Below are positions 1,916-26,525 of a DNA stretch of 32,018 nt, piece by piece (the first letter of the stretch is position 1; each line of letters starts with the position of its first letter). This stretch comes from Planctomycetota bacterium (GTDB taxonomy: Bacteria > Planctomycetota > Planctomycetia > Pirellulales > Pirellulaceae). The stretch spans positions 1 to 32,018 of the forward strand of contig JAQBZB010000080.1 in NCBI GenBank assembly GCA_027622275.1, written 5' to 3'. The notes under the pieces were generated by a model, which saw nothing but the letters and a program-made list of their open reading frames with translations, was not told the DNA's origin and did not search any database. Both the position numbers and the translations under genes were made by a program.

Positions 1916-2881
1916 TCAACATCGCCTCTCGTCCATAATTAGACCTGTCCCGTTTTCATCCGTCAGCCTTTCAATCGGGGCCGCCTGGCGACGGGCTGGA
2001 ACCGGTGACTTTGCACCCGGAGCACCACCTTCTCGTTTAGCCGGCTGTGCCTGATTCCCTGGCAGCCCACGTACAACAGGGTAGATTCTGCAGTTGGGCA
2101 ACGCCTGTTGGAGTTTCGTGATTTGTTCTTCGCTGACCTGCGTCCCCCAAAGGTCCAGCTGTTTAAGGCTCTTCAGATTCGCCAGAGGAACTAAGTCGCT
2201 GACCGACATGTCGCCGAGCGAAAGTTCCTGAAGGTTCGTCAAATTCGCTAGAGGAGCCAGATCGTCGGCCTGCATTTGCCTGAGGCCCAGCTCACGAAGG
2301 TTCTTCAGATTCGCTAGCGGCGTCAGATCGCGAATCGACGAGCCGTGGAGGTTAAGTACTTGAAGGCTCTTTAGATTCGCCAGCGGCGTCAGGTCACGAA
2401 TCGACGAGCCCTGGAGGTAAAGTTCTCGAAGGCTCTTTAGATTCGCCAGCGGCGTCAGGTCGCCGTCCGACGTGCCTGAGAACAAAAGCGTGTGAAGGCT
2501 CTTTAGATTCGCCAGCGGCTTTAGGTCGTGAACCTCCGTTTGGCTGAGGAAAAGTACTTGAAGGCTCCTTAGATTTGCGAGTGGCGTCAGGTCGCAGACG
2601 GGATTGTCATTGATGTAAACATGCACCACTTGATGGTAATAGTCCCGCAACCACTCAGGCCCCGTCGCCTTGGCACTTGGCACCTCGACTCCATGTTCGT
2701 TGACTTCGTAGTCGTAACGCACCGTGCCCCCCATTTTCAACACCCAAGCCACCGCCTGCCGTTGTTGGTTGACTCGATTCGCCTCCCCGCCGAACCACAC
2801 ACAGCCGAGCAACAGCATCACGAGGAACGTGTACAAACTGAATTGCCGATAACGGCGGCGACGTCTCTTTGTATCGCTCAT
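1916..2881 (-). CDS. Membrane-anchored leucine-rich repeat protein
   Basis: A 321-residue protein. The frame extends upstream to 2998, but ATG at 2881 gives a natural N-terminus: MSDTKRRRRRYRQFSLYTF, a basic stretch followed by one membrane segment (about residues 17-32). The rest would face the periplasm. Residues 90-280 carry about eight repeats of 22 residues built on DLTPLANLKSLxxLxLxG, a regular leucine-rich repeat solenoid expected to bind a protein or other ligand. The tail (about 285-321) is Pro/Ala-rich and low in complexity. The middle repeats are nearly identical as DNA, which suggests recent expansion. The gene lies downstream of the giant hydrolase on the same strand. Ligand unknown. 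Confidence 0.8.
   Translation of the reverse strand: MSDTKRRRRRYRQFSLYTFLVMLLLGCVWFGGEANRVNQQRQAVAWVLKMGGTVRYDYEVNEHGVEVPSAKATGPEWLRDYYHQVVHVYINDNPVCDLTPLANLRSLQVLFLSQTEVHDLKPLANLKSLHTLLFSGTSDGDLTPLANLKSLRELYLQGSSIRDLTPLANLKSLQVLNLHGSSIRDLTPLANLKNLRELGLRQMQADDLAPLANLTNLQELSLGDMSVSDLVPLANLKSLKQLDLWGTQVSEEQITKLQQALPNCRIYPVVRGLPGNQAQPAKREGGAPGAKSPVPARRQAAPIERLTDENGTGLIMDERRC
2299..2585. repeat. 66-base tandem repeats inside the LRR gene
   Basis: The string GGCTCTTTAGATTCGCCAGC recurs at 2365, 2431 and 2497, with close variants at about 2299 and 2563. The spacing is exactly 66 bases, or 22 codons, matching one leucine-rich repeat. Near-identity at third codon positions points to recent duplication or gene conversion. 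Confidence 0.85.
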
Positions 2882-2894
2882 GACATGTATTATC

Positions 2895-3083
2895 TCAACG
2901 TGCCGTTCGCATGTCACTTCCTGCCAGTCGTTCCTGAACGTCCGGGTGATCGGTCGAGGGAGGCTTTGCCTCGGCTTGCGCAACGCCGTCTCCCTCAATC
3001 GGCTGCGCCTGATTCATCGGCGGGGCAGCACGATCACCTTCATCGACGGTCCATCCGGCTACGCTTTGCGCTAACGCGATCAT
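2895..3083 (-). CDS. Possible small ORF coupled to the giant hydrolase
   Basis: A 62-residue frame whose ATG (3083-3081) overlaps the TGA of the giant hydrolase gene (3082-3080) in an ATGA arrangement typical of coupled translation. It has no recognised domain. Its text [20 protein letters not shown] resembles the low-complexity tail of the neighbouring LRR protein (GNQAQPAKREGGAPGAKSP), so it may be a stray copy or remnant of such a tail. It ends 13 bases before the LRR gene's ATG. It could equally be a chance frame. Confidence 0.3.
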
Positions 3084-6000
3084 GGGAACGGGGGCGGGGG
3101 ATAGTTAATGCCTATATCAAGGATACCATTGTCGAACGCGTTCCAACCAGTTGCGTCATCGTGCAGCATTCCGTACAGGACCGAATCCATTAAGTGCGAG
3201 GCCACGAGCTCGTCGAGGGCACGGGTGGCAACAATAGGAGCAGCCGCCAAAAACACATTTAGCCAATCAGCGAATGTATTCACGCTTTGGAGCTGACTAG
3301 AGGCAAGATCTACCGCTACGCGTTGTGCGAACGTCAGGTTACGCAGCCCTTCTATATGGACAAACCCATTATGGGTCGCTGATGAATCCGCGATGATCGG
3401 AGCGGCGGCCTGTGCCCAGGTGAGTAAATCCGGCGCGTCCGTGGTTCCGTTCGGCCGGTGGGCGAGAGCCCCTGGTTTCTTTAAGGAAGCTCCAGAATAA
3501 CCCGGATGGACAAAGTAAGAGGTAATCGCCTTCTGGGTCTGGGGAGCGGTTCCGTCGAATCGCGCGAGGGCACCTGAATTTTTGACAATGTCCAGGCACC
3601 CATGGATGACTCGATGTATTCCAGATCCGGCATTGGTGATGTTGATTGGCGCGCCTCCGGGTGTCAACGACAACTGGAACTCGTCTCCCGCCACGTGGAC
3701 CACATAGTACGTCGTATTGATTGACAAGGGATCCGGAAGTGTGCCAAGCGTCGTCACTGTAACTGCCTGACCAACGCTCAAGCCGTGATCGGTCGCCGTC
3801 AAGATGTCGGTCATAAAGTCGGCCGTGAACACCGGCGGCTGTGGATTCGGCTTGCACAATGATTCCCGACGAAGGCCGGCGGCATTGAACGTAAGAGCGC
3901 GAATGTCGCCGCCATAGGCGGCTCCACTCGCCAAGCCTCCACCCAGAGAATGGCCCGTCGTCGTCAGGTCATCGCCCAACGCCGCATCGGTGTAATAGCC
4001 GAGTTCGATTGCATTCTTGTACTGTGGTTCCGCAGGCGAAAAAGCCTGATAAATGTTTGTTAGCAGATCCTCCAAGCTATTAAACGCTGTTCCCCCGAAG
4101 GCGAGTATGTGCGTGCCATTTACATACTCTCGATACAAGGAAGCATTAAGTCCACCGGTGGTAAAGGAAGAACATCCGGCACTACTGTAAAACAATCTAC
4201 AAATCACTTCCTTGTGCTTGATGGGATCTAGCGGGCTGTTGTCAAGTAGTTTTTGCACATCCGCCTTACTTTGACGTTGCAGTGTAAAGTTCGGCTCCTG
4301 GGTAGGTCCGTAAGCGGCGTCTGAAGCGAGTGCATTTCGCAATGCGTGACTGCCGTGCAGAGTCGGATAGAACGAATTTGGCTCGACCACCATGTACTTG
4401 ACCTCGTCGGAGAGTTCGCCTCCGACAAGCTTGGGTACGGAGGTTTTGTCGATAAAAGGTGATGCTTTTTTAACTTTAACATCGAGCGGGGTCGACACTT
4501 TGAAGCGATCGTTGGGCTTTCCCTTAGCTCCGGGAAAGTTAGTGTAGGGAGTTTTACCACCCACTTCGACCAACTTGTCATGATCTGGCTCTAGGGCGAT
4601 CGCATCCATCCACAATGTGATCCCCCCACTCCCAGGATCGTACTGCAGCTCCTTCAATGTGTACCTTCGTAGATCCTCCCATGAATGCATTACGCGGTGT
4701 TCGACTGCGGGGCGGCTGCCTTCGCCGTCCCAAGGCACATTCCATAGTTCTACATATCCCGATTGATTGCCGCCTGTTCTCGTGAGTCTCACTTCGATGG
4801 TGGGATCGTCCACATCGAACCCTGGCGGCAACCGCAGTCGCATGGGCGTGAAATGCACATTTTTCTCGAGCATCTTGCCAATCGCATATTCGTGATCCTC
4901 CAACTCCTCTTCCCAGGGACTGTTGTCCGGAAAGCCGAAATCGGTGGGATGGCTATCATCAGTGTAGACGCCCATATGGCTATTGTCGCTATCGACGTCC
5001 AGATCCAGCTTCCAGACACGAGTCACCACCGCGCCGCCGTAGATCGGGGTCTTCCCACCCGCGACTGGCATGCCCATCCAACCATCCGGGAACCACGCTA
5101 GAGTGATCGTGGTCTGGCCGATGTTTACGCCTTCAACCCAAACCGTGCTCTGGCCTTCGTACTCGATCGTCGGCGGGTCGTCGGGTCCGCCTCCGCCAGA
5201 AGGCGTCGGCGTCGGAGTTGGGCTTGGAGTCGGAGTGGGACTCGGTGTAGGACTCGGAGTCGGTGTCGGCGACGGGCTCGGCGTCGGAGTTGGTGTCATG
5301 CCGCCCGGAACGTAGAGATTGTCCTTTTTCTGCGAATCCCAAAGCTTGATGTTCGAGCCGAAATTCAATTCAAAGTATCCCTCTTTCTTGTCCATCCCGC
5401 TGGTGACCAGGTCGCTGAGGTCCAAAGGGCGAATGTCCAAGTCGGTGTATCCCCGCTCGTCGCGGTCATCCACTTCATTCCCATTGTCGTCGTTGTAGTT
5501 CACCATCACGTCATGTTTCTTGATCTTGTACTCCGCCTCTCCCGTATCGTCGTCTTTCAGCGTAATGGTGATCGGGTAGATCTGTGCAAAGTCAGTTCCG
5601 AAGACCCGCTCAGCCCTGATCGTCTCGGACCCAGACGGACATGGATTTAGTACTTCTTCGCAATTATCTTGACCGGTTGTTTTCTCCGGGATGTCGGCCC
5701 ACTTGACCTCGATCGTATGGTTGTCGCGCTGGCCCGGGTCATCGTAACTGGAAACTGTGATCACACCCATCGAATCCCCATTTGACTTTTCTTCGAACGT
5801 CAAACTCGGGTGATCGGTGAGCCTTGGAGCGACGTTGTTGATCTTAACTTTTTTCGTTTGGGGGGGGAGACCGGCGAACTCGACCTTAAAATCGATATTG
5901 TCGAAGGCACTGCCATTCCCTAGCCACTCGCCATCGTCTTCCAAAGTGTACGACCGCGAAAACATTTGGTCCGGCATGACGCCTTCTATCACCTCGGTTT

Positions 6001-8320
6001 CGCCCGGATCATCGGTGTCGTTGTCTTGATTCAGGTTTACGGTGATGGTGACGGCCTGGGACGGATCGAACGCCCCCATCGAATTCGTGGGGCCACAAAC
6101 CGAGAAGGAGAGGAAGACTTCAACACCCTCGTCCACTTCGGCTACATCAGTAGTGCCGCCCACCTCAGCGGTAACTTTAAAGTCCTGGATTTCGTAGGCC
6201 GTTGAACAGGAAGTTGGCGTCGGACTTGGCGATGGTGAAGGACTCGGGCTCGGCGTTGGGGACGGTGAAGGACTTGGTGAAGGAGTTGGACTCGGGCTGG
6301 GGGTGGGTGATGGACTTGGTGAGGGCGTCGGACTAGGTGATGGGCTTGGCGTTGGCGACGGACTTGGCGACGGACTTGGACTGGGAGTTGGCGAAGGAGA
6401 CGGAGTTGGTGAAGGACTTGGGCTCGGCGACGGTGATGGCGATGGTGATGGGCTCGGAGTCGGTGTCGGGCTGGGCGATGGTGATGGGCTCGGGCTTGGT
6501 GAAGGCGAAGGACTGGGCGAAGGACTGGGCGACGGCGATGGGCTAGGTGATGGACTCGGCGTCGGCGACGGCGATGGGCTAGGCGATGGTGAAGGACTCG
6601 GCGACGGCGATGGCGATGGGCTAGGCGATGGCGAAGGGCTAGGCGATGGCGAAGGACTTGGACTCGGTGACGGCGATGGGGTCGGCGATGGTGACGGTGA
6701 TGGCGACGGGCTGGGGCTCGGCGATGGCGACGGACTTGGACTCGGGGATGGGCTAGGACTCGGCGATGGTGACGGTGATGGCGACGGACTGGGCGACGGC
6801 GAAGGGCTCGGCGATGGTGAAGGGCTGGGTGATGGTGAAGGGCTGGGTGATGGTGTCGGTGACGGACTTGGACTCGGGCTCGGCGTGGGTGACGGACTGG
6901 GTGACGGCGTCGGGCTCGGTGATGGACTCGGCGAAGGTGAAGGACTGGGCGACGGTGATGGCGACGGACTGGGACTCGGACTCGGACTGGGCGATGGTGA
7001 CGGACTTGGTGAAGGACTGGGACTCGGCGACGGGCTGGGCGATGGCGTCGGCGAGGGACTCGGCGAAGGTGAAGGCGAAGGTGACGGAGTGGGACTGGGC
7101 GACGGCGTGGGGCTGGGTGACGGGCTCGGGCAGTTCACGGCTTGCCACATGGCGATCAGGTTGTTGAGGTAGTCAATGGTTGCTGGCGATGCGCCCGTGG
7201 CGATCGCGAAGGCCAATTGCCCGTTCAGTTGAGCGATGTTCCAGGCTTTCATATCCTCGCAGTATTGTGCAATCATTTCTTCCGGCGTGCCGGGATCGAC
7301 GATGATGCCGTTGGCCAGGCCGTCGGCGTCGCCGCGGCCGCCGTCTTGCAAGAACAAGTGGATGCTGGCCCCCACGACGATCGCGCCGGTCGTGCCGTCG
7401 AATGGGAACGGCACAAGAACGCCGGTGACCGGGTCCTCTTTCAAATAGCCCGTCGGCTGGCTGCCGTCCGGCATGATCACCACCACCTCGGCGACACCGC
7501 CCGGTTTTACATCGTGTACTTCAAAGTCGATCAGTCCGTATTTCGGTTGCCCACGCTGGGCCGGAGCCTGCTCGGGGCGGACATCGAGACTGCGCACGCG
7601 GACGAGCTTATGCTCGCCGGCGTCCAGCGTGATGGAGTTACCCGTACGGCGATCGCGAAAGCTTCCCACGCCCGCCTGATCCTTGTCCCGTGTGCCATCC
7701 CGATTGCCGTCCCCTTGGTTGGGCGCGGAATCTTCCTCGTCGCCGTCGATGCCGTCGACATCGGCGTCGCGCTCGCGCTGCGTCGCGCGAGCGTCGGCCC
7801 GCAGCAACTCGCGATGGTCGCTCGGGGCGGAGTTCTGCGAGTCGGAATTCCCCGCGCTGAAGTTTGCCGCGCTGGCGGCGGTCAGATGTTGCGCGATGAC
7901 GACGGCATCGGCGGTCGTGACCGCGCCATCGCCGTTGAGGTCCAGCGTCACGAGTTGCGCGTGCGACAACTGGCCGCCGCGTGTACTGTCGTTGGCGACG
8001 TTGACGACGATTAAGACGTCTATCGGAGAGAATACGCCGTCGGCGTTGATGTCATACGAGGAGATTTGGGATTTGGAATTCTGGATTTCAGATCTGAAAG
8101 CCGGACTTCCGAATTCCGCAATCGCAATTCCGACTTGCTCCGTGTTGGCCAGGAGTCCAACCTCCGGGAGGAGTTCGGCGGCGAGGACGACGCGCGCGTC
8201 GAGGTGTTCGAGATGCAGACGCCGCGTGCGCGTCTTCGCTGGCTTACGCCGCTTACGCCCCCCCCCCAGAATCCACAATCTAAAAGATTCCCACGTCCAA
8301 AACTCGATCGGCTTATGCAT
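3080..8320 (-). CDS. Giant surface protein: LEPR-like motif, dockerin-like repeats, Ser/Pro tract, C-terminal lipase-like domain
   Basis: A 1746-residue protein. ATG at 8320 is preferred over 8392 because GAGGGG lies 9 bases before it and a LEPR-like N-terminus ([13 protein letters not shown], residues 35-47) follows. Residues 88-148 hold two EF-hand loops ([25 protein letters not shown]) as in type I dockerins. Residues 240-375 resemble a 'choice-of-anchor' domain. Residues 396-702 are an almost pure Ser-Pro/Thr-Pro tract. Residues 705-1000 look like Calx-beta/Ig-type beta domains. A second Thr/Ser-Pro linker covers 1007-1039. The C-terminus resembles a class 3 lipase, with LAFGGT and the nucleophile elbow GHSLGGG (Ser about 1458). 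A likely His lies near 1652. A 75-residue beta domain (about 1497-1573) interrupts this fold. The protein is expected to be exported and to hydrolyse an ester; the substrate is unknown. Confidence 0.8.
5202..5298. repeat. Second Thr/Ser-Pro coding repeat
   Basis: About 32 codons of alternating Pro with Thr or Ser, followed by GGGG (residues about 1007-1043). It acts as a flexible linker between the beta domains and the region leading to the hydrolase domain. Confidence 0.85.
5860..5867. repeat. Run of eight G (C on the coding strand)
   Basis: Eight consecutive G within the giant hydrolase gene, encoding part of GLPPQTK. Together with the ten-base run at 8258-8267 it is a potential slippage site. 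Confidence 0.7.
6213..7133. repeat. Ser-Pro/Thr-Pro coding repeat tract
   Basis: About 307 codons encode almost unbroken (Ser-Pro)n with scattered Thr. On the plus strand it appears as GGCGATGGCGACGGACTTGG-type text. Several synonymous codons are mixed for both Ser and Pro, so the DNA repeats less exactly than the protein. It probably forms a long extended linker, possibly O-glycosylated, between the anchor and the catalytic part. Confidence 0.9.
8258..8267. repeat. Homopolymer of ten bases near the start of the giant gene
   Basis: Ten consecutive C on the plus strand are ten G in the coding strand, covering codons 18-21 (LGGG) of the giant surface protein. Slippage here would shift the frame before any folded domain. 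Confidence 0.75.
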
Positions 8321-8855
8321 GGCGCGGTTCCCCTCGTGTCTTCCTCGGATCGATCTGCGACTGAAAGAATTCCAGTCAGTCGAACACGCCACCGACGTCC
8401 ATGTAGGCGAAGGCCATTCGTCTGATTGTCGGCAGCAGGCGGAATTCTAACGGTGCGAGATATCGTTTGTCAAATTTTTGGAAGCAAGATTTATTCGGGC
8501 GGGCCAGGAAGTGCGCCGCCAGGGCGAGCTTTCCGCGTCACTGGAAGCGCCCACGTCGCTGGCGTTGGGGTTAAACCAAGGCTGGGCTAGACAGCCTTGC
8601 TCCAACGGCTGCATGGAGCAGCGGCGCGTCGGCCTCACCGGCGCTCCGTCACAGCCACCAAGTGATTGTGCCTGGGCGACGAGTCGCGGTCAGTACAGGC
8701 CACGGCGACCGAACTGGTAGCAGATCTGTCCGGTTCGGTTTGAACGCCTTGCTTGTCTCACGCGAGCGGCGGAAGACAACGTCCCAAAACCAGTGAAAGC
8801 GGGCTCGCGTTGGTACGAGCCGACGGAACTGCACACGCGGCTGCCCTAATAGTTG
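8321..8855. other. Gene-poor stretch
   Basis: No coding region is convincing here. Short frames such as 8478-8720 (plus) and 8649-8834 (minus) have repetitive or low-information translations and no start signals. A 23-base hairpin at 8577-8599 (CAAGGCTG facing CAGCCTTG) could end minus-strand transcripts from the Rpn gene, but it has no clear T-run. The first bases hold the ribosome binding site and probable promoter of the giant gene. Confidence 0.5.
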
Positions 8856-9845
8856 TCATCCCTCGCCACGCGAGCGGAGCAGGTCTTGCAAGTCGGCGAG
8901 CTGTGAAGAAAGTTCTTCCACCGTTTTACTTATCGATTCCATCGAGGATGTTTCCGTCTCGCCAAGCAGTTGCTGTAGTACTTGAATTTTGCCAGCGATG
9001 ACTCCCTTGCCAACCCCTTCCACGAGGCCCTCATTTCGTCCTTGCTCAAGCCCTTGCTCAAGCCCTTGCTCAAGCCCTTGCTCAAGCCCTTGCTCAAGCC
9101 CTCGTTCAAGCCCTTCCTCAAGGCCCTCGCTATGAGCACCTTCAATCGCCCACTGATAATCGCGTTGTGCCTTGTCTCGCTGATCGTACATTATTCGGTC
9201 CTCGGTTTTCTGAGCAATCTGTTCAATCGCCGATATCGCTTGTTGAAATTCCACGGCGGGAAGCAACTCACGCAGACGGTCAGGTTCATACTGGTCGGCA
9301 AACAATAAGAAAAACGACCACTGTTCAATCTTGCTCGCTCGGCTGATCGTTGCTTCGTCTAAATTGTACTTCGTTAGTTCGACCGTGTGTACTTCAATCG
9401 CGTTGCGTAGCTCCCGGCGTTGGTCGGGATCATACAGTCGGAAGCGATGGTGCGCCGTCTCTGATTCGCGGAACAGTACATTATTTAAGAGACAGATCGA
9501 GATGGCTGGCCTCAGTGATGCGTAATTTTGACCAGCTTCCAGTTGGTCCACATACAAGCTGCAGGCGTAGTACACCAGTCGCTGAATGAGGCCGCTATGG
9601 ACAGAAACTTGCATCTCGATATTTAGGCAGCGACCTACCGAGTCTTCCGCACGAATGTCGAGGATGATCAGCTTGTCGCCAGAGAATTCCTCATAGCTGA
9701 ACGGATTGACCACGTTCACGTCCGTGATCGGATGCGGCAAATTGAGAATCGCATTCAGCAACCCGACCAGGGCTTTGGCATTCTCCGGACTGCCAAATAT
9801 TTTCTTGAACGCAAAGTCGACGGTCGGTTTAATTCCCAGCGGCAT
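8856..9845 (-). CDS. Rpn-family PD-(D/E)XK nuclease / putative transposase
   Basis: A 329-residue protein starting at ATG 9845, with GGCAGGAG about 6 bases upstream. The opening (MPLGIKPTVDFAFKKIFGSPENAK) and the segment LIILDIRAEDSVGRCLNIEMQ are hallmarks of the Rpn/PDDEXK_2 family. The Asp of LDIRA and the Glu/Gln of IEMQ fit the metal-binding D...ExQ core. Members in E. coli (RpnA and relatives) are DNA endonucleases that promote RecA-independent recombination. Residues 235-275 hold a (E-Q-G-L)n run from a 12-base tandem repeat, followed by a coiled-coil-like tail; both are usual in this family. It is probably mobile or accessory. There is no clear partner gene nearby. Confidence 0.85.
   Translation of the reverse strand: MPLGIKPTVDFAFKKIFGSPENAKALVGLLNAILNLPHPITDVNVVNPFSYEEFSGDKLIILDIRAEDSVGRCLNIEMQVSVHSGLIQRLVYYACSLYVDQLEAGQNYASLRPAISICLLNNVLFRESETAHHRFRLYDPDQRRELRNAIEVHTVELTKYNLDEATISRASKIEQWSFFLLFADQYEPDRLRELLPAVEFQQAISAIEQIAQKTEDRIMYDQRDKAQRDYQWAIEGAHSEGLEEGLERGLEQGLEQGLEQGLEQGLEQGRNEGLVEGVGKGVIAGKIQVLQQLLGETETSSMESISKTVEELSSQLADLQDLLRSRGEG
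9045..9128. repeat. 12-base tandem repeat in the Rpn gene
   Basis: Four exact copies of CTCAAGCCCTTG (9045-9092) followed by three degenerate copies. They encode repeated EQGL residues. Unit length is a multiple of three, so copy-number change alters length but not frame. Confidence 0.85.
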
Positions 9846-9965: not shown

Positions 9966-12038
9966 TTATGAGAACGCCCGAGAACTACGAAACGGTGGTT
10001 TTTGTGGAATGCAGACTGGCTGCTTTGCCAAGCCCCGCTGCTTCGCGGTGCAAGGCCAGTTGGTTTGCACGGGCGACGACTCGCTGGGAAGGGCCAGGAA
10101 GCGAGCGCACAGAAGAACAGTCGTTACCGTCGCGGACAGAATAAGTGTCAAGCTCAAGACGATTCCGCCAATCGCCAGCCAAGGTGTGAACGCAAACGAC
10201 TTGTGAGACGACGAATAGTAAACCGGTCTCGGCGCGTAATAGCTGACGGCGGGAACAGAAGGTGCCGGGCGAACAACGCTTGGTGCCTGCCACTTGCTCG
10301 CGGCGAGTGGTTCGCCAGCGAGGCGGCCGGCGGCCGTTACCATCTCGATGAACTCGCGGCGGTAGCCGTGTTTGTCTTCGCCCCGAGTGGAGTTAGCGAT
10401 TTCGAGGATCAAGCCGTAGTTCGTGTTCTGCAGATGTTCGGACTTTCGCAAGAGCATCCCGAAGGCCGCGACGGCGGAGGCGAACTGAAAGTCGCCGGTC
10501 GCTTGGCCAAACTGAACGGGAGTGTTTTTGACCGGAGCAACGATCAACTGACTCGTGTCGCCATCGGGTTGCTTGTAGCGAAGTTTCACCGTCATCAGTT
10601 CGTCGCCGCCCGCACCGTCCCGCTGTGTCTTCTGGTACTTCAGCGGATCGATCGTGGCGATGCCTGTGTCACTTGCTTCTCCGGCGGGAATGATCTCGTA
10701 CAAGGCGGTGACCGTGTGCCCCGCGCCGATCTCGCCAGCGTCTTTCTTGTCGTCGTTGAATTCGTGGGCTTCGAGGTGCCGGTTCTCGTATCCGATCAAA
10801 CGATAGGCGGCCACATGCGCGGGATTGAACTCGATTTGGATCTTTACATCCTTGGCGATCGTGACCAGCGTACTGTTGATTTGGTCGCAGAGCACCTTGC
10901 GAGCTTCGGCTTCGCTGTCGATGAAGGCATAATTACCGTTCGCCTTGTTTGACAACTGTTCCATCATCGCGTCGTTGTGGTTGCCCATGCCGAAGCCGAG
11001 TACGGACAGAAACACACCCGCTTTCGATTCGCGTTCGGCCAGCCGCACGAGTTCGCCGGTACTGGTCGTGCCAACATTAAAATCGCCGTCGCTGCACAGG
11101 ATCACGCGGTTGACGCCGCCTTTGATAAAGTTTTGTTTCGCAACTTGATAGGCGAGTTGGATGCCCTGTCCACCGTTAGTCGATCCGCCGGCATGCAATT
11201 GGTCCAACGCTTCGAGAATCTGATGCTTGTTGTCGCCGTGAGTCGGGGGCAGGACGAGGCCGGCGGCTCCCGCGTAAACGACGATCGCGACTCGGTCGTT
11301 CTCGCCCAGCTGCGACGTCAGCAGCCGCAAGCCTTGCTTCACTAACGGCAACTTATTCGGATCGTCCATGGAACCGGAGACGTCCAGTAAGAAGACGAGG
11401 TTACTCGTCGGACGCTGCTGCTGAAGCTCTCGCCCCTTCAAACCGATTCGCGCGAGCCGATGCTGCGGATGCCAGGGAGCGTCGGCGACTTCGACGTTGA
11501 CGGAGAAGGGGTGTTCGCCGACCGGAGGCGAGTAGTCGTAGTCGAAGTAGTTGACCAACTCTTCGATGCGGACGGCATCGACGGGCGGCAGCGCGTTCTG
11601 TTGCAGTAAGTACATCCGTGTCTTGGAGTACGAGGCCGTATCGACGTCGATCGAGAACGTCGACAGCGGCTGCTCGCGAACCGGCACGAAGGACCCTTCG
11701 ACAATCAAGTCATACTTGTCGCCGCCAACTCCGGGGCCGCGCCCTTTGTCTTGCGGAACGGCTTCGCTCTCGGGGCGCGCCATGAAGCTGGGAGTCGGGG
11801 CCGGCATCGCTTCGATCGCGTCGACGTCGTGTGTGCTGCCGCTGGCCGCCGGCGCCGCCTTACTCTCGGCGTATGCGTACGACGCGTCGAGCGGTTCTTC
11901 GGCCAGTCGTGTGGCCTGCGCGTGATTCGCGGCAGCGGGGCCCGAACTAACGTCTCCCCTCTGCGATTTCGAACCGCAACCGATCAGAGTGACGAGATAG
12001 ATTCCCGGCAAAGTCCAAGCACACCATTTGCGCAACAT
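9966..12038 (-). CDS. von Willebrand factor A lipoprotein, YfbK type
   Basis: A 690-residue protein. ATG at 12038 is chosen because AAGGAG lies 7 bases upstream and it gives a lipoprotein signal (MLRKWCAWTLPG...TLIGC, lipid-carrying Cys21). The longer frame to 12107 lacks these. Residues 115-200 match the conserved N-terminal region of YfbK-like proteins (STFSIDVDTASYSKTR, RIEELVNYFDYDY). The vWA domain follows, with a complete MIDAS start DVSGS near residue 218, and then the family's C-terminal region (MTVKLRYKQPDGD..., FQFASAVAAFGMLLR). An odd addition follows: a hydrophobic helix (about 625-650) and a basic tail, so the C-terminus may be membrane-anchored as well. The role is probably metal-dependent protein binding at the envelope. 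It diverges from the permease gene. Confidence 0.88.
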   Translation of the reverse strand: MLRKWCAWTLPGIYLVTLIGCGSKSQRGDVSSGPAAANHAQATRLAEEPLDASYAYAESKAAPAASGSTHDVDAIEAMPAPTPSFMARPESEAVPQDKGRGPGVGGDKYDLIVEGSFVPVREQPLSTFSIDVDTASYSKTRMYLLQQNALPPVDAVRIEELVNYFDYDYSPPVGEHPFSVNVEVADAPWHPQHRLARIGLKGRELQQQRPTSNLVFLLDVSGSMDDPNKLPLVKQGLRLLTSQLGENDRVAIVVYAGAAGLVLPPTHGDNKHQILEALDQLHAGGSTNGGQGIQLAYQVAKQNFIKGGVNRVILCSDGDFNVGTTSTGELVRLAERESKAGVFLSVLGFGMGNHNDAMMEQLSNKANGNYAFIDSEAEARKVLCDQINSTLVTIAKDVKIQIEFNPAHVAAYRLIGYENRHLEAHEFNDDKKDAGEIGAGHTVTALYEIIPAGEASDTGIATIDPLKYQKTQRDGAGGDELMTVKLRYKQPDGDTSQLIVAPVKNTPVQFGQATGDFQFASAVAAFGMLLRKSEHLQNTNYGLILEIANSTRGEDKHGYRREFIEMVTAAGRLAGEPLAASKWQAPSVVRPAPSVPAVSYYAPRPVYYSSSHKSFAFTPWLAIGGIVLSLTLILSATVTTVLLCARFLALPSESSPVQTNWPCTAKQRGLAKQPVCIPQKPPFRSSRAFS

Positions 12039-12212
12039 GATCAAGCTCCTTGGGAGATCGTGGTGGAACGGAGGTAGTTGTTCGATAAGACGAGCAGCGT
12101 CGAACAAAGGTTTCTTGTCTGGTTGATCCGACGCTCGATCAGATTATTCCCGACGACGTCATTTACGACAGAACATCTTCGCTCAAGACCCGTTGGCATC
12201 TAAACTGATGCG

Positions 12213-13832
12213 ATGCTTGAAGGAGGTTCTAGATCGACGTGGGTTGGAGCGGTTGCGATTTGCTTCGCGGCAATGCTCGTCGTCGCCACGATGTTCCTCG
12301 ACCCGCGGGCCTGGTTACTGATCCGGAACACCGTGGCACTGGCCGGCGGAGCGGCGACGCTGGCGGTCCCAATCGGCGCGGGTTTGGCGTTCCTGCTGCT
12401 GCGAACCGACTTGCCGGGTCGAACAATTCTGCTGGTTGTCTTTGGCGCGATGCTGTTCGTTCCGCTCTATCTGCAAGCGGCGGGTTGGGACGCCGGATTT
12501 GGGAAGCAAGGTTGGTACTCGTTCGCCCACGGTTCCGCGGCGGCACCAATTCTCGATGGCTGGCGGGCCGCGATTTGGATTCACGCGATGGCTGCAGTTG
12601 CGTGGGTGATGCTGATCACTGGACTCGGGTTGTGGCTGGTGGAACCGGAATTGGAAGAGGCGGCGATGCTGGATGCTTCGGCGGTGAACGTGTTTCTCAA
12701 GATAACGGCTCGGCAGTCTGCACCATTCGTGGTCGTTGCGGCACTGTGGATCTTGGTGACCGTCGGAACGGAGATGACCGTGACCGATCTCTACCGCGTG
12801 CGAACGTTCGCGGAAGAGATTTATATCGACGTTCCCTTCGTCGGGGCGATCGATACGCTCGAGCCGTTGCGCCCGACCGGCGTCACGACGGCGTTGTTCG
12901 TGAGCAGTCTCGTGGCGATCACCTTGTCGTTGCTGTCGCGGTTAGTTCCGCCCGAGCACTTTCCCAGTCACACGCGACGTCGTGTGTTTCGACTCGGCCG
13001 TTGGCGCTGGCCGGTGGCTGCGGTCGTCGGCTTGTTGGTGTTGGTGATGGTCGGCACGCCGATGCTGAACGTCATCTACAAAGCTGGATTGGTGGTCGAG
13101 CAGGTTGACGGCACACGGATGCGGCAGTGGTCGTTGGTGTCTTTACTGCGGATCGTGTTCAACAGTCCAGGACAGTTCGCTGAGGAACACGGTTGGACGC
13201 TGCTCATCGCAGGCCTGGCGGCAACGGCGGCGGTCGTGGTGGCAACGCCGCTCGGCTGGCTGGCGCGCCGCGGGTGGCGGCGATCCCTGCCAGCTCTGAG
13301 CGTTGCCGCCATCTGTCTGGCGATTCCCGGCCCGATGATCGGATTGTCGGTGATTTGGCTCTTGAATCGTGAACAGTCTGACTTGTTCGTGTGGCTGTAC
13401 GATCGAACGATCTTTGCCCCCTGGCTGGCGATGCTTGTGAAGGCGTTGCCGATCGCGGTCTTGATGCTGTGGTACGCGTTTCGGTCGGTTGCGGACGAAC
13501 TGCTCGAGAGCGCAAGTTCCGAGGGGGCGGGGCCGGTCGTGCGGTTCATCCGGATCGGACTGCCAAGTCGCTGGCGATCGCTCGCGTGCGCATGGCTCGC
13601 CGCGTTGGCGGTCGCGTCCGGCGATTTGGCCGCGTCGATTCTTGTGGTTCCGCCGGGCGTCACGACAATCCCCGTTCGTGTGTTCGGTCTGCTACACTCG
13701 GGAGTCGATGATCGAGTGGCTGGAATCTGTTTGACAACCGTGTGGGGCTTTGGCGCGATCGGCGGCCTGTTGCTGTGGTTGATGCGTCCGGCGAAAAATG
13801 CGGCTCGGGCAATTTCCGATAACGGAGTATAA
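12213..13832 (+). CDS. Two-domain ABC transporter permease, iron(III)/FbpB type
   Basis: A 539-residue membrane protein with about 12 hydrophobic segments in two halves. Each half carries a cytoplasmic EAA-like loop: EPELEEAAMLDASAVNVFLK near residue 145 and ADELLESASSEGAGP near 427. These contact the ATPase. Duplicated-permease architecture is typical of FbpB/ThiP-type importers for ferric iron or thiamine; the substrate cannot be decided here. ATG at 12213 is the only good in-frame start, but AGGAGG lies just inside the gene and no Shine-Dalgarno precedes it, so the start is less sure. No binding protein or ATPase gene lies nearby, which is unusual. A DUF1570 gene follows 7 bases downstream. 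Confidence 0.82.
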   Translation: MLEGGSRSTWVGAVAICFAAMLVVATMFLDPRAWLLIRNTVALAGGAATLAVPIGAGLAFLLLRTDLPGRTILLVVFGAMLFVPLYLQAAGWDAGFGKQGWYSFAHGSAAAPILDGWRAAIWIHAMAAVAWVMLITGLGLWLVEPELEEAAMLDASAVNVFLKITARQSAPFVVVAALWILVTVGTEMTVTDLYRVRTFAEEIYIDVPFVGAIDTLEPLRPTGVTTALFVSSLVAITLSLLSRLVPPEHFPSHTRRRVFRLGRWRWPVAAVVGLLVLVMVGTPMLNVIYKAGLVVEQVDGTRMRQWSLVSLLRIVFNSPGQFAEEHGWTLLIAGLAATAAVVVATPLGWLARRGWRRSLPALSVAAICLAIPGPMIGLSVIWLLNREQSDLFVWLYDRTIFAPWLAMLVKALPIAVLMLWYAFRSVADELLESASSEGAGPVVRFIRIGLPSRWRSLACAWLAALAVASGDLAASILVVPPGVTTIPVRVFGLLHSGVDDRVAGICLTTVWGFGAIGGLLLWLMRPAKNAARAISDNGV

Positions 13833-13839
13833 TAGGCGA

Positions 13840-14979
13840 ATGCACCGCTTCCTCCTGCTGATAACTTGTATTATCGCTGCGCTGGCGGGCAATCTCGGCT
13901 ATGCGATCGAACATGTTTCGCTAAAGCGGGACGGCCAGTCGATTCATGTCGACGGGAAGATTATCGTCGAAGCGCAGGACGGTGGCCTGCTGGTGCAGGA
14001 CACGAGCGGAGTGCTGTGGGCCATCATGCCCGACGAGATGGTTCATCGCGAGTCCGATGCGATCCCTTTCAAACTAGCCGATCATGACGAGATGAGCGAG
14101 CGGCTGCTGAAGGAGTTTTCCGACGGCTTCCGCATTCACAAGACGGCTCACTACGTCATCTGCTATAACACTTCGCCCGCGTATGCCGAATGGTGCGGCT
14201 CGCTTTACGAACGACTCTTTTTGGCGTTCAACACGTACTGGAAGAATCGAGGATTCAAACTGAGCGAGCCCGAGTTGCCGCTGGTCGCGTTGGTGTTCAA
14301 CGACCGCAGTAGCTATGTCGCGCATGGCCGGCCAGAACTGGGGGATCGAGTCCTAGAGACGATTGGCTATTACAGCCTGCGGTCGAATCGGGTGGTGATG
14401 TACGACTTGACGGGATCTCAAGCGGGAGGCGGAGGCCGCGGATCGTCGGCCGCTCAGATCAACCAGCTGCTGATGCGGCCCGGTGCCGAACGGACGGTGG
14501 CCACGGTGATTCATGAGGCGACACATCAGATCGCCTTCAACTGTGGTTTGCAAACGCGGCACGCCGACATTCCGTTGTGGGTCAGCGAGGGCGTAGCGAT
14601 TTACTTCGAGACGCCGGACCTCCGCAGCTCGAAGGGATGGCGTAATATCGGCGGAGTGAATCACGTGCGGTTGCTGGAGTTTGGCCGCTACTTACGCAAC
14701 CGGCCGGCGGATTCTCTCGTGACATTGATTTCCCGCGACGAACGCTTTCTTGACCGTCGGCTGGCGGGCGATGCGTACGCCGAGGCATGGGCGCTGAACT
14801 ACTTCCTGATCCGGAAGCATCCCAAAGAGTATCTGGCGTACATGACCGTGTTATCCGAGAAACTCCCGCTGCGCTACGATGAACCGGAGGCTCGGCTCGC
14901 GCAGTTCAAGGCGGCATTTGGCGAGGACTTGGAACAGCTGAATACCGAGTTTCTTCGCTATCTGCGCACGGTGCGGTAA
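13840..14979 (+). CDS. Exported DUF1570 zinc metalloprotease-like protein
   Basis: A 379-residue protein. ATG at 13840 is preferred over 13798 because it begins with a clean signal peptide (MHRFLLLITCIIAALAGNLGYA) and avoids overlap with the permease. Residues 225-229 are HEATH, followed by WVSEGVAIYFE with Glu near 250. This HExxH...E pattern of a gluzincin metallopeptidase is characteristic of DUF1570, a family abundant in planctomycetes. The region before it (HYVICYNTSPAYAEW) matches the family's beta core. A periplasmic or secreted zinc peptidase is inferred; its substrate is unknown. The 7-base gap to the permease suggests one transcript, although a functional link is not obvious. Confidence 0.85.
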   Translation: MHRFLLLITCIIAALAGNLGYAIEHVSLKRDGQSIHVDGKIIVEAQDGGLLVQDTSGVLWAIMPDEMVHRESDAIPFKLADHDEMSERLLKEFSDGFRIHKTAHYVICYNTSPAYAEWCGSLYERLFLAFNTYWKNRGFKLSEPELPLVALVFNDRSSYVAHGRPELGDRVLETIGYYSLRSNRVVMYDLTGSQAGGGGRGSSAAQINQLLMRPGAERTVATVIHEATHQIAFNCGLQTRHADIPLWVSEGVAIYFETPDLRSSKGWRNIGGVNHVRLLEFGRYLRNRPADSLVTLISRDERFLDRRLAGDAYAEAWALNYFLIRKHPKEYLAYMTVLSEKLPLRYDEPEARLAQFKAAFGEDLEQLNTEFLRYLRTVR

Positions 14980-18967: not shown

Positions 18968-20191
18968 TCACCAAAATCGTGGGTTGCGTCCATCTAGCTC
19001 ACATACGCAGCCCGAAACGTTCGGGAAGAGACTTTGAAATCGTTGCAGACCTTCTTCGGTGACCTGGGTGCCTTCCAGCGTGAGCATACGGAGCCGTTTG
19101 ACCTTGGCGACGTGTTCGAGCGCCTTGTCCGTGTAGGGACCAGTCAGCATGAGATGATCGACCGTATAAGAGTCGTCGTCGAGACAAGCGAGCCCGTCGT
19201 CGCCAACGGTGGGCGGCAAAAAAAGTTCGGCGAAAAAGCGATGGTGCAGCATCGCCAAGCCGGCGCCGGTCACGTTCGTCTTGCGGAGATCAAGGCAGAT
19301 CTGCCGCATCATGTTCGCGATGTGCTGCATCCCAGCGTCCGTGATACCCGGACCGAGCTTGACGGAGCTTAGGAATCGAAGGCCGACGATGTGGCCCAGT
19401 CCCGCGTCGGTCGCTGCGGGATAGTCCGCTAACGACAGATTGCTACAGTATTGACACTTACCAAGGATTCTCAGCGTCTCGTCGTTGCAGTCTTTGGGAC
19501 CTAGCAGAATCTGGAAGGCAGGAAGATTCGGCAGTCCGCGCAACGCAGCCGTCGTTACTAAGTCGGACTCTGCGAGATAGAGCGTTCTGAGTTTCGAGTG
19601 TTTTGTGATTAACTTCTCGATTCCACGATTGGTGACTTGAGACGCCGCCACATCGAGGTTGCCGAGCATCGGCAAGCCAATCAGATGTGCAAGCCCGTCG
19701 TCCGTGATCTGTGGAGAGAGCCGGATGCCCATGAGGTTAGTCAATTTCGCCACGTGGGGCATACATGCGTCGGTCGCTTGCAGGGGCAATTCGAAGGATT
19801 TCAGTTTTTGAAGTACCGCAAAATTCTCGATCCCTACGTCCGTAATCTGATTGGGAATCTCATGAATCCAGTGAAGGTTTGGCAGCTTTCGTAGATGAAC
19901 GAGACCCGCATCGGTGACGTGCGGACTCCGAAGTTCTACCGACAGCATCTCTGGAAACGCTGGCATTAACGCCAGTTCGGCGTCACCACAACAGTCGCGC
20001 AGTTGCATCGACCGAATCGTTCCATCCGGGTTGCGATCAATCCATACCTTGTGATCTACGAGCCTTTCCAAGATCGCAGCTCGATCCGACAAGTCGGGTT
20101 CGTCGGCACAAGATGAGACGCCAAAGAACCAAGACGCCAGTACGACCGTTGAGACGGCGCGAATCATGGTGGAGTTGAAACTAGTCGTCAT
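18968..20191 (-). CDS. Exported leucine-rich repeat protein, TDAGL type
   Basis: A 407-residue protein. ATG at 20191 has GGGAG about 9 bases upstream; a second ATG at 20167 is possible. The N-terminus holds a hydrophobic export signal (MIRAVSTVVLASWFFGVSSC) that could be either a lipoprotein signal (Cys at the end) or an ordinary signal peptide. Residues 75-395 form about 12 leucine-rich repeats of the (I/V)TDAGLxxLxxLxxLxxL class, common in planctomycetes, and probably bind a protein or glycan. The gene overlaps the upstream Calx-beta gene by 11 bases and is followed after 5 bases by a second LRR gene of the same type. The pair look like diverged duplicates. Ligand unknown. Confidence 0.85.
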   Translation of the reverse strand: MTTSFNSTMIRAVSTVVLASWFFGVSSCADEPDLSDRAAILERLVDHKVWIDRNPDGTIRSMQLRDCCGDAELALMPAFPEMLSVELRSPHVTDAGLVHLRKLPNLHWIHEIPNQITDVGIENFAVLQKLKSFELPLQATDACMPHVAKLTNLMGIRLSPQITDDGLAHLIGLPMLGNLDVAASQVTNRGIEKLITKHSKLRTLYLAESDLVTTAALRGLPNLPAFQILLGPKDCNDETLRILGKCQYCSNLSLADYPAATDAGLGHIVGLRFLSSVKLGPGITDAGMQHIANMMRQICLDLRKTNVTGAGLAMLHHRFFAELFLPPTVGDDGLACLDDDSYTVDHLMLTGPYTDKALEHVAKVKRLRMLTLEGTQVTEEGLQRFQSLFPNVSGCVCELDGRNPRFW

Positions 20192-22490
20192 CTCTTATTT
20201 CTCCCACGCCCGAGGCTTTGGTGGCGTCGATTGTAACAAACGATCCTACACCGTTGGCGGACAGGTTTCCAAGCGTAATCTGAAAGTATTCGTCGTTCTC
20301 ATTTGCGCTATCCCCGAACACTCGAACTTTCATCACTTTCGAAGCACCGTCTGTACCTCCCAGATCGAACGGCCCGGGATCCAGTACCAAGTAGTCTTGG
20401 CCAACCGGTCCTGGCGACGCGGGATTGCCAGGACCGCCTGCCACCGTCGCCGATACGGTCACTGTTCGATCGATCGACTTGTCGACGCTAATCGTGAATG
20501 AGAGATCTGTCATTGTGCCCGCGGCACCCTCGACGGTGGAAGCCGAAGGGGTAATCGAAACTTTTGCGTAGTCATCCGCTTCGATCGTTGCCGTCAGGCT
20601 GCCCCCTCCCGACACAGCTCGATCATAGGAGTCAGCGACTCCAAAGGAGAGCCCGAACGTCTCGGTGAGTTCGACGAGAGTGTCAGGTGTGACGGCTACC
20701 GGGAGAACGACAAACATATCGCCAGCCTCCAGCGTTGCCGCCCCACCGCCCGTCTCTGTGTAGTCCAGATTAATCTGCGCGGTCCCGTTGGTCGTTGTGA
20801 CGGAAAGATCGATGTCGGTATCAACAGAAACAATGTGACCGGGGAACTCTTGATGAACCAATATCGCTCTGAATTCCAGCGCGCCCCAATCATCTTCCAG
20901 AGACGTCGGAGAAACCTCCTGCAAGGTGGCGCTGATTACCGTGGCGAGCCTCATCGTGCCAATGTCGTCATTTTCGATTGTGTCGGTAAAGGGTGTTGCA
21001 GTCGGTACGACACTTCGCCCACTCGCTGCCACGGAATCGATCTTGATCTGAAACGTCTCGTTCAGTTCAATCTTCCAATCAGGAGTCACGGGTATGTGGA
21101 ATGTTTCAATCTGAAAACCCTGTGAAATCGTGACGCTTGCGGGAACATCCCCGAAGTCGTTGTCCGACTACTTTGCGGTCCCGTCAATTGTACTCAGATT
21201 CACAACGACATCGACGTCCACTTGCTTGTCAATCTGCACGGAGTACAGACGAGTGTAGTCGACGGAAGTTCCTTCCGGGCCGTTCGTATAAGTGTGACCC
21301 ACGATCGTCGCCACGGCGTGGTCATCATTGTTAATCGTGCCTGTCGCTGTCCCGCCGCCGCCCGTTGCAGTTCCGCTTCCACTCGCCGATCCGGCACCGG
21401 AGCCAATTCCAATTCCAACACTGTTTCCGCTGCCGTCATGTACGGAATCCAGGTGCAGCGTAAACGTCTCGTTTCGTTCCACGATTTGATCCCAGGTGAG
21501 GGTGATGCCCACAGTCTTAGTTCCGCCAGTACCGGGACCGAAAGGCACGTGCCCATCACCGGTCGCCACGCCCAAGTAGTCCCAGGGGTAACTCGTAGGA
21601 CTCGCGGCCACGGCCGTGCCATTTTCCGTATGATAGTCCACCGTAAACCCACAGGGGGAGCTACCCGTGAAGGACAGTGTAAACGTAATTGTTCCCGCAT
21701 CCTCATCGGCCGATGCATCCGACACCGAAACGTACCCCGAAGCGGGCATTGTGCCGCTTCCCGAAGCGCTCCCGCCGCACGTGGCCGTGGCGGTTCCACT
21801 TCCATTTGCACCGCCCGATCCGTTCCCGGATGAACCGCCGGAGCCACTTGTCGACGCTCCGCCTTCTCCTTCGCCCATCATCCAAGCCGGCATCGCAGAG
21901 GCCCCTTGTGATGTGCTACTAACCGACGAATGCGGCAATTCGGCTCCCGTAACATTGAAACCTTGGCCGGAGCCGGAGCCGACGCCGGAACCGAGTTGGC
22001 TGATCGGGGAACTGAAGGACGAACTGGGATTGGAGAGCGGAGGTGATGGGGTGACGGGGTGACTGGGTGACGGGGTGACGAGTTGGTTGCTGGTGAAGAA
22101 GGCGTCGACGAAGGAGGCCGAAACCAGCAAGTTCGTTGTGGCTCGCGAGACAGGGGCGATGTCGAGACCTTCAAAGTCTTGCCTCAGCGCGACCCGCTCT
22201 TCGTTCGGCTCAAGATCGGTATCCGGCAGCGAGAAGCCGTTTTGCAACAACGGATTCGAGGGGCGGGCTCGAAGTGTGACCGCGTCGGATTCCGCTTCGA
22301 TCTCCTGGGGAACCAATTGTTCGTCGGGCAGCAGGTCGAAGGTGGCGGCAATGGCCGCGCCGGCCAGCAGGTCCAGAAAACCGCCGGGTAGGACGCGGCT
22401 TTCGAGTTGTTCAACGCCGTTGCGGATGAAACTTCGATGACTTCGTGTTCGCTTGTTGCGGTTCAACCGTTTGCGGCGTTGCTTGCTCAT
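20181..22490 (-). pseudogene. LEPR-like/Calx-beta surface protein with an internal TAG stop
   Basis: Two frames in the same register (22490 to 21168 and 21167 to 20181) read as one 769-codon gene interrupted by TAG at 21170-21168. Sequence resumes directly after the stop (SDNDFGDVPASVTISQGF), so the lesion is a nonsense change, not a shift. The N-terminus is basic and carries VEQLESRVLPGG, a LEPR-like motif typical of large planctomycete surface proteins. A Ser/Gly-rich low-complexity stretch follows, and then at least four Calx-beta-type domains with the usual endings (TGTINNDD, TDTIENDD, TATIEADD, VGEIRDDD) and NETF motifs. Calx-beta domains bind calcium and often occur in adhesins. It heads the five-gene operon and diverges from the sigma factor gene. 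Readthrough or a sequencing error is possible. Confidence 0.8.
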
Positions 22491-25103: not shown

Positions 25104-26525
25104 TCACCCCGTCCGCAGCTGTGTCTCGATGCGTCGTATCGCGTCTTCGACGTGGCAGGCGGCTTGTCCAATCTGGATCGTGGCACCATCCGAAACCCAA
25201 CGGTTCACTTTCTTCTCGGCGGAGATGACGGTGCTGTGGCTGCGGCGGCCGAAGTGCTCGCTGATTTCGGAGAAGGCGGCCCGCGTGTACTTCCGCGCCA
25301 ACCACATCGCGAGCATACGCGGATGGCTGGCCGACTTAGCCTTGCTGCCGTCCTTCAACGTCCGCGAGTCGAGACCAAACGTGTCGCAGACCGCTCGCTC
25401 GATATCGCTCAAACGAACGACCTGGACCGTGGCGCGGAAGATGTCGGCCAAGGTTGAACGGGCGAAGTCGAGTGTGATGGACTGATCGAGCGCTTCGCTG
25501 GCCGCTTCCAACCGGTGCAACGCGCCAGCAATTCGGCGTGCGTCGCCAGTCAGCTCGGCGGCGACAAGCCGCAGGACATCTTCCGGAATCGGCCGCCGGG
25601 ACCGAACCGCCATCTGCTTCGCGATCCCAAGTCGCGTTTCGTAATCGGCATGTTCGATGCCACACAGCAAGCCGCCCGAGACGCGTGCCGCCAATTCCGG
25701 CCCCAGCTGACGGAGTTCGTTGGGTGGACGATCCGCCGTCAAAATCAACTGCCGACCTTGGCGGAGCAGCGAATCCATGGTGTGTTGCAGCTCGACCAGC
25801 GTCGCCCGCTTGCCGGCAAAGAACTGGACGTTGTCGATCGCCAGCACATCGACGTCCCGGCACTTGCGCCGAAAGCTGGGCAGACCACTTCCTTGCAGGG
25901 CACCCAGAAAGTTGCTGGTGAACTGTTCCGACGACAGCGACAACACGCGCCGCAGGCCGAGTGATTGGCGGACGGTGCCGCAGATGGTCTCTTGAAGATG
26001 GCTCTTGCCGCAGCCGGGCGGTCCATAAATGAACAACGGCGAAACGGAGCCGGGCCGCTCGCAAATCGATTTCGCGGCAGTCACCGCAATGCGATTGCCG
26101 ACCCCGACCACGAAAGTGTCCAGCGTCCGCGAGCACGTTGCCTCGCGGCGCTTCGGGCGCGTCGCCGACTCCGCCGATGGAAGCTTGCTCGTTCGCTGAG
26201 GTTGTTGCTCGACCGCGGTCGCTTCACGATGGCGTGTGCTGTCGGCGGACGGTAGCTTTGCGTTCGGCAGAAGTTGGAAGTCCAACGAGACTTCGCGCTT
26301 GACCAACTCGCGGGCAATGATCGCAATGTCCGAGCGAAACTGCTTGCGGAGACGATCGAGGGTGAACTGATCGGGTGCCCACACACGGAGCTGGTTATCG
26401 GCCAACTCGAATCGGACTTGCTTGCCAAACCAGAGATCGAAGCGATCGGCTCCGATCCGGGCGGCGAGGCAACTCCGCAAGTCTTTCATGACTTCCTGTG
26501 CGTCCCTAGTCACTTCCTGTGTCAT
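25104..26525 (-). CDS. dnaA: DnaA-family replication initiator
   Basis: A 473-residue protein. Domain I (residues 13-90) includes GADRFDLWFG, and a low-complexity linker follows. The AAA+ core has Walker A GPPGCGKSHL (168-177), Walker B VLAIDNVQFFAGK (227-239), sensor I ILTADRPP (261-268), an arginine-finger segment LAARVSGGL and sensor II GDARRIAGAL. Domain IV (about 400-445) has the DNA-binding SEISEHFGRRSHSTVISAEKK. Two deviations stand out: Walker B has Asp-Asn where DnaA normally has Asp-Asp, and domain IV has RRSHSTV for GGRDHTTV. DnaA binds origin boxes and opens DNA. This could be the main initiator or a second copy. A 21-base duplication at the start offers ATG at 26525 or 26489. Confidence 0.85.
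   Translation of the reverse strand: MTQEVTRDAQEVMKDLRSCLAARIGADRFDLWFGKQVRFELADNQLRVWAPDQFTLDRLRKQFRSDIAIIARELVKREVSLDFQLLPNAKLPSADSTRHREATAVEQQPQRTSKLPSAESATRPKRREATCSRTLDTFVVGVGNRIAVTAAKSICERPGSVSPLFIYGPPGCGKSHLQETICGTVRQSLGLRRVLSLSSEQFTSNFLGALQGSGLPSFRRKCRDVDVLAIDNVQFFAGKRATLVELQHTMDSLLRQGRQLILTADRPPNELRQLGPELAARVSGGLLCGIEHADYETRLGIAKQMAVRSRRPIPEDVLRLVAAELTGDARRIAGALHRLEAASEALDQSITLDFARSTLADIFRATVQVVRLSDIERAVCDTFGLDSRTLKDGSKAKSASHPRMLAMWLARKYTRAAFSEISEHFGRRSHSTVISAEKKVNRWVSDGATIQIGQAACHVEDAIRRIETQLRTG
26492..26521. repeat. Short direct repeat spanning the two possible dnaA starts
   Basis: CACAGGAAGT occurs twice in the coding strand, 21 bases apart (7 codons; TQEVTRD then AQEVMKD). The inner copy places AGGAAG 3 bases before the ATG at 26489; the outer copy lies just after the ATG at 26525. 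Which start is used cannot be decided here. Confidence 0.5.

Follow-up and report, generated by a model that had tools for sequence, protein, structure and literature searches.

Domain organization of the protein and its lipase head

The stretch of DNA analyzed here (the window, 32,018 nucleotides of contig JAQBZB010000080.1 from a planctomycete of the Pirellulaceae) carries on its minus strand, to which all features of the protein below refer, a single open reading frame of 1746 residues (3080–8320, with ATG at 8320 and the stop codon ending at 3080; an alternative GTG start at 8392 would lengthen the product to 1770 residues). Its product, a planctomycete protein, combines marks of export and a long Ser-Pro rod with a lipase of Tle6-like type at the C-terminus, in which Ser, Asp and His are retained. 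An earlier reading of the DNA, made from its letters only (the sequence-only reading), had described one frame of 1746 residues with a LEPR-like motif, a dockerin, a rod of about 307 residues, two beta regions and a GHSLGGG motif in the C-terminal part, and this description is correct. The LEPR-like motif (residues 37–47, 8180–8212), identified by pattern, is preceded by a basic stretch. The domain search proposed for the N-terminal part returned a type I dockerin (Dockerin_1, residues 89–146, 7883–8056; E 6.3e-8, 33.1 bits against a Pfam cut-off of 22.9) and a choice-of-anchor U domain that had not been named before (residues 259–346, 7283–7546; E 4.6e-14, 53 bits against a cut-off of 32). 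Judged from its sequence, the protein thus bears marks of export in its LEPR-like motif and dockerin. Matches to RNA polymerase alpha at the dockerin are far under their cut-off and were rejected.

The rod (residues 398–704, 6209–7129) consists of 135 Ser, 153 Pro and 19 Thr and is written with 14 kinds of codon (e.g. CCG 56, CCA 48, CCT 26, CCC 23; TCG 41, AGT 34, TCA 33, AGC 23), so that the repeat is apparently kept at the protein level and does not reflect fresh slippage of the DNA. MSCRAMM matches (NCBIfam) fall on this low-complexity rod and were rejected. It is followed by a beta region (residues ~705–1008, 5297–6208) that looks PKD/Ig-like by reading and, likewise by reading of the sequences, is common to the window protein and its relatives, by a second Pro-rich linker of 33 residues made of Pro, Thr and Ser (1009–1041, 5198–5296) and by a second beta domain (~1055–1300, 4421–5158) with the acidic, possibly metal-binding motif DLDVDSDN, called here the DxDSDN domain. 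Neither beta region matches Pfam. The DxDSDN domain weakly resembles peptidylarginine deiminases by fold; at Z 5.8–6.8 and with no Pfam match, this identity was not adopted and is kept as a hint.

The remaining residues (1301–1746, 3083–4420) form the head, and that it is Tle6-like is close to certain. Using a profile of seven relatives, the lipase effector of the E. cloacae type VI secretion system (T6SS; 7UBZ/9CYS) is the single strong sequence match in the PDB (E 2.1e-19, next 0.13), and the window head alone also finds it first (E 6.5e-5, next 0.93). Structure prediction gives the same answer: for the model of residues 1290–1746, 9CYS chain A comes first (VIA-align Z 19.8, rmsd 3.2, 221 of 277 residues aligned, next chain 12.8; Foldseek E 1.1e-5, followed by a feruloyl esterase at 8.7e-4), as it does for a larger model of residues 1090–1746 (Z 18.5, rmsd 5.7, 238 aligned, next 13.0; Foldseek 3.1e-4). 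Both predictions used alignments of the window protein with proteins of related loci and are of middling confidence outside the core, the mean pLDDT being 72.7 for the smaller model and 64.5 for the larger one, with ~92 around the elbow. Pfam Lipase_3 (PF01764; 13.5 bits against 22, E 0.067) and the SA1320 family of lipase-like proteins (28.2 bits against 230, E 6.5e-7) resemble the head in the alpha/beta hydrolase elbow region, but only at scores under their cut-offs.

The nucleophile elbow GHSLGGG (residues 1456–1462, 3935–3955) provides Ser1458, and the acid Asp1631 (3428–3430) and His1709 (3194–3196) complete the triad; the three residues were assigned by sequence alignment. They are kept in all 20 aligned rows of stalk proteins, i.e. 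lipases carried as in the window. Over all 111 aligned rows the Ser is present in 111, the acid column holds D in 47, E in 22, C in 1 and a gap in 41, and the His is aligned in 22 with a gap in 89, most non-stalk rows not being aligned that far. In PMC11470151 the triad of the E. cloacae Tle is given as Ser341, Glu393 and His448; the stalk lipases therefore differ by Asp in the place of Glu393, an equivalence established by reading. The sequence-only reading had named a C-terminal model without an alpha/beta hydrolase fold, or without the triad, as the outcome that would speak against it, and this outcome did not occur since such a model and an aligned Ser, Asp and His are both present.

The stalk-lipase family and its ankyrin partner genes

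Among 241 genomes of the window's family, the full block of DxDSDN domain and lipase occurs in 15, including the window's own, and any match at 1e-5 in 38. Further blocks are present in G083, a genome of another family in the same order, and on a named contig (L118); a 392-genome sample of the phylum contributed partial matches only. The order of domains, thought at first to be without a described parallel, is broadly common to proteins in 14 other genomes of the family and on the named contig, the relative in G083 (the fifteenth other genome) being truncated by the contig end, and this recurrence places the architecture beyond chance. The window protein scores E 2e-192 against the profile of the relatives, a value without independent weight, since the window is itself among the rows of this profile. 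In a search of contigs the window head alone gave 58 pattern matches and no confirmed relative, and an alignment was needed as query; the named-contig set used below comprises the best 80 of 246 confirmed relatives, among at least 593 stretches. A search of viral contigs returned 15 distant relatives.

The LEPR-like motif is detected by pattern in 17 of the 18 stalk proteins having their 5' part (L032, whose 5' part is cut by a contig end, is left out here and counted for its partner), and 16 of the 18 contain a low-complexity stretch, the longest in each protein ranging from 31 to 393 residues. Its composition is Ser-Pro, Gly-Ser, Ser-Asp, Thr-Ser-Gly or another mixture. Thus the position of the rod is kept and its letters are not, which gives it the appearance of a spacer. 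A tree of the lipase domain, built by a quick method from 111 rows and 155 columns, unites the 20 stalk rows with planctomycete L119 (SH-aLRT 93) and places the window among 10 stalk rows that form a group of support 98. Support is weak at depth, 50 of the 108 inner branches being open; even so, the grouping of the stalk rows points to one recruitment of the lipase in the phylum. L119 (5546–7669, plus strand), from a planctomycete metagenome-assembled genome, has the same head behind a region resembling formylglycine-generating enzyme by our own reading, and a similar frame of 978 residues directly follows its lipase gene.

An ankyrin gene stands beside all of the 18 other stalk lipases counted. 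Twelve of them are new loci, in which a profile built from six ankyrin genes matches right after the lipase and on the same strand (12/12), the first possible start codon of the ankyrin gene lying between 103 bases before and 88 bases after the lipase end; as L086/L087 and L095/L096 are near copies, these amount to about 10 independent cases. The other six are L028a, L029, L030, L031 and L032, which served to build the profile, and L118. L115–L117, whose contigs equal those of L090, L092 and L088 in length, are these loci again and were counted once. Left out of this count are a fragment at L030 that has no elbow and the 5'-truncated orphan lipase L028b, which no ankyrin gene follows and which was retained for the tree and for the 20 rows in which the triad was counted. 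The L030 fragment (4176–5603, minus strand) has DxDSDN and lipase regions with GVGVGGE instead of the elbow serine motif and is apparently a dead lipase copy; it stands between toxin and ankyrin gene, the latter lying about 1.5 kb behind the intact lipase.

The partners are recognized by Pfam Ank families above cut-off in the five proteins scanned. Among 26 genomes, 24 of 28 ankyrin stretches of at least 100 bits have a stalk lipase at a distance of 5 kb or less, and six of these 24 are rows of the profile; no lipase was found around the remaining four (G100, G126, G083, G047), and G100 and G126 are two of the 10 genomes without a stalk lipase in this search. All 19 partners tested have a hydrophobic stretch within their first 80 residues (best 15-residue mean 1.58 to 2.89), and 9 of the 19 have a lipobox-like Cys by a looser pattern. 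In the named-contig set, a separate ankyrin-family frame lies no further than 2.5 kb from 64 of 86 lipase frames; the count was 69 before discounting five (L131, L143, L159, L166, L191) in which the two are the same or heavily overlapping frames. Two of these, L143 and L166 from Providencia, match both profiles with one frame and could be natural fusions of toxin and partner. The ankyrin profile also matches 365 distinct PDB sequences at 1e-5, so Tli, the partner of Tle6, is not separable by sequence from other ankyrins. Partner genes are repeated at L029, L032, L088, L089, L090 and L095, and at L114 a pair of them accompanies a lipase remnant of 95 residues. Such duplicated, orphan and fragmentary toxin or partner genes (e.g. 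L028b, L030, L114) are pieces typical of conflict systems.

Carriers, possible partner and insert at the window locus

TssC (VipB), the only T6SS part sought, was looked for in 17 genomes and is missing in 11 of the 16 that carry a stalk lipase, among them the one-contig genomes G215 and G216 and that of the window; the latter is 96.2% complete in 555 contigs, so that the absence there is not absolute. Delivery by a T6SS is therefore unlikely, and the stalk is the likely carrier. Neither the window protein nor any of five stalk proteins scanned has a PAAR match. In this phylum the head is also found at the C-terminus of L033, which is encoded near a VgrG-type gene and matches PAAR weakly (16.2 bits, cut-off 27), and of RHS-like proteins, namely L034 (20.1 bits, cut-off 22) and, by reading of their sequences, L035 and L036. 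LEPR carriers with a DxDSDN-type motif, which are alike only in parts, end in a lipase, in RHS or in unclassified domains (L210, L211); L214, for instance, combines a LEPR motif, a Pro-rich stretch and the motif DIDADN with a C-terminus of RHS repeats (RHS_repeat E 3.4e-42). An AHH nuclease at the end of L076, suggested by a motif, has no Pfam match and was dropped.

The window copy is set apart from its relatives by two features. The first is a module of ~78 extra residues between nucleophile and acid, present in the window only among 19 aligned stalk heads. This phage-tail-like beta module (residues ~1495–1572, 3605–3838) lies between Cys1489 and Cys1575, after the strand following the elbow helix, which is a usual cap site in the alpha/beta hydrolase fold. 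It matches PHROGs at E 2.4e-5 (a family of unknown function) and 6e-4 (a tail fibre family), and 70 phage records at E ≤0.01, 52 of them from Microbacterium phages; the records listed are annotated as hypothetical or minor tail proteins. The module recurs in long frames, of up to 9582 residues, of the window genome and of relatives (L005, L017, L023 and others).

The second feature is the partner. Downstream of the lipase, in the place of an ankyrin gene, lies a leucine-rich-repeat (LRR) gene (1916–2884, minus strand) whose product has a hydrophobic N-terminus ending in LLLGC and is a possible substitute partner; Imm-LRR is a named class of immunity protein in PMC3482391. That the window copy is an active weapon guarded by this LRR neighbour may be offered as a guess from the layout of the genes. 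The LRR gene contains 66-base tandem repeats (2295–2595; 4.6 copies, 77% matches). A second LEPR-like gene (20184–22490, minus strand) has the motif LESRVLP, a Ser/Gly-rich stretch, Calx-beta domains and one in-frame stop, and is directly followed by another LRR gene with a hydrophobic N-terminus (18971–20191); a stalk-type gene before an LRR gene thus occurs twice in the window.

Elsewhere in the window, a nuclease-transposase of the Rpn/PDDEXK_2 family (8856–9845, minus strand), with a 12-base tandem repeat array at 9040–9131, lies just upstream of the lipase gene. It is followed within 9966–14979 by a YfbK-type von Willebrand factor A protein on the minus strand and by ABC-permease-like and DUF1570 genes on the other strand, and the contig carries dnaA at 25107–26525 (minus strand).

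A proposed toxin on a stalk and rival explanations

Taken together, these observations make it likely that the stalk-lipase family is a toxin-partner system working without a T6SS, and we incline, by a small margin over even odds, to take the window protein for the toxin of such a T6SS-independent, surface- or matrix-presented toxin-immunity system, whose partner has here been exchanged or lost. The N-terminus would direct export of the protein, the dockerin and anchor domains would hold it at the surface of the producer, and the rod would extend the lipase away from the cell, where on meeting a neighbour it would cut membrane phospholipids. In the relatives the exported ankyrin-repeat protein encoded beside the toxin would bind the lipase, protecting producer and kin, and may also aid its folding as Tli does for Tle6. 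In the window the downstream LRR gene would replace the missing ankyrin partner, or the insert would alter lid and target and make a partner unneeded; these are the weakest steps. The sequence-only reading had proposed an enzyme held away from the cell, perhaps against bulky polymers or esters. The sequence agrees with the first half of this proposal, a lipase borne at the tip of a long stalk. The second is not supported: the nearest solved relative is an antibacterial T6SS phospholipase, the head also ends PAAR-like and RHS-like proteins, and its relatives are paired with ankyrin genes as Tle6 is with Tli, so that the interpretation as a whole is supported in part.

Several observations weigh against a toxin with a partner at this locus. 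Toxicity, export and delivery by contact are properties that we infer for the stalk lipases. No ankyrin gene is found among the 284 frames of the window, the contig ending 3 kb downstream, and in the window genome the ankyrin profile gives one weak match of 20.8 bits on another contig, which lies inside a frame of 1118 residues and was rejected as a partner. Genes like the LRR gene are common in the window genome, where 38 further stretches match. The dockerin and the LEPR motif also occur on other exported planctomycete proteins, and the window genome has several matches to the dockerin region. Among the named contigs, 17 of 86 lipase frames are without a nearby ankyrin frame, including planctomycete L119, L140, L173 and L120 (the contig of L120 ends soon after its lipase frame). 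Polymorphism of the C-terminal domain on one carrier is not proven by the C-termini of L210 and L211, and the ends other than the lipase are at most candidate toxins. Finally, the E. cloacae Tle is activated by an Arg-Lys (methylglyoxal) crosslink from the first to the last helix, for which 19 of 20 stalk rows have no counterpart by spacing. The window protein has no Lys 10–17 residues after His1709, a test of spacing only, and just two non-stalk rows could be scored, one having such a Lys and the other lacking it.

The strongest rival is a secreted digestive lipase, held at the surface and acting on environmental lipids, for which the ankyrin protein of the relatives would be a dedicated periplasmic chaperone or safety inhibitor. 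The LEPR-like motif, the dockerin and the anchor domains suit a surface enzyme, the lack of TssC in most carriers agrees with it, feruloyl esterases and fungal lipases come next by fold, and Tli of E. cloacae is itself required for activation of Tle according to PMC11470151. However, both sequence and fold place the head nearest to an antibacterial effector and not to a nutritional lipase, the head is found on PAAR-like and RHS-like carriers, and conflict systems account better than digestion for ankyrin genes without a lipase and for a lipase remnant that accompanies ankyrin genes; we give the digestive explanation about one chance in four. Less probable still is a head that is no longer a toxin, partner loss and the phage-tail-like insert having made it a binding or housekeeping surface protein. 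The window holds the only partnerless stalk member among those counted, and the only insert, placed between nucleophile and acid. Against this, Ser, Asp and His are intact, the frame is open over 1746 codons and the end branch of the window (0.71 over the 155 columns) lies within a clade whose other members range to 0.84, so that there is no sign of relaxed evolution. Cargo of a T6SS, delivered by the phage-like injector with the stalk as a passenger, is suggested by the Tle6-like head and by TssC in five of the 16 carriers, but with TssC, the one part sought, absent from the other 11, with no PAAR match and with a LEPR motif that would route the protein elsewhere, it is highly improbable.

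Returning to the toxin-immunity system, its closest counterpart is Tle6/Tli of E. cloacae, the nearest solved relative by sequence and fold, with the same lipase fold and elbow and with an ankyrin-repeat partner that, in the stalk-lipase relatives as well, has a hydrophobic N-terminus. The window protein differs from it by its carriage on a LEPR/dockerin/rod stalk, in a family mostly without TssC, by the absence of an ankyrin gene and by the inserted module. The locus would be of the polymorphic-toxin type: like the RHS and CdiA toxins, the stalk lipases have a long carrier, a C-terminal toxin-like domain, an adjacent partner gene and orphan pieces, and they differ by their planctomycete stalk of LEPR motif, dockerin and a Ser-Pro, Gly-Ser or Ser-Asp rod. 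The immunity proteins of polymorphic toxins named in PMC3482391 include Imm-ank and Imm-LRR. The paper lists planctomycetes for many toxin types, including Tox-AHH with Imm-ank; within the 300,000 characters available of its text the words dockerin, Rhodopirellula, Blastopirellula, Pirellula and Gemmata are absent. A search of open-licence papers found no published account of planctomycete stalk lipases.

A wider proposal is more tentative, and we hold it possible rather than probable. Planctomycetes would own a T6SS-free surface-stalk toxin system in which LEPR/dockerin carriers, their low-complexity rods being interchangeable, expose Tle6-type phospholipases and other C-terminal domains to neighbours, and an exported repeat protein guards each of them; at the window locus the guard would have been swapped from ankyrin to LRR, and the lipase would have acquired a phage-tail module that serves as a new cap or binds a receptor.

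If the toxin-partner reading is true, the pairing of lipase and ankyrin protein described for the T6SS also operates in its absence, on the planctomycetes' own stalk. One such pair is encoded by a named strain, Rhodopirellula solitaria CA85 (L117), and pairs of this kind would allow asking how planctomycetes compete and how large LEPR proteins leave the cell, as well as whether Tle6-like lipases need glycation or only their partner for activation.

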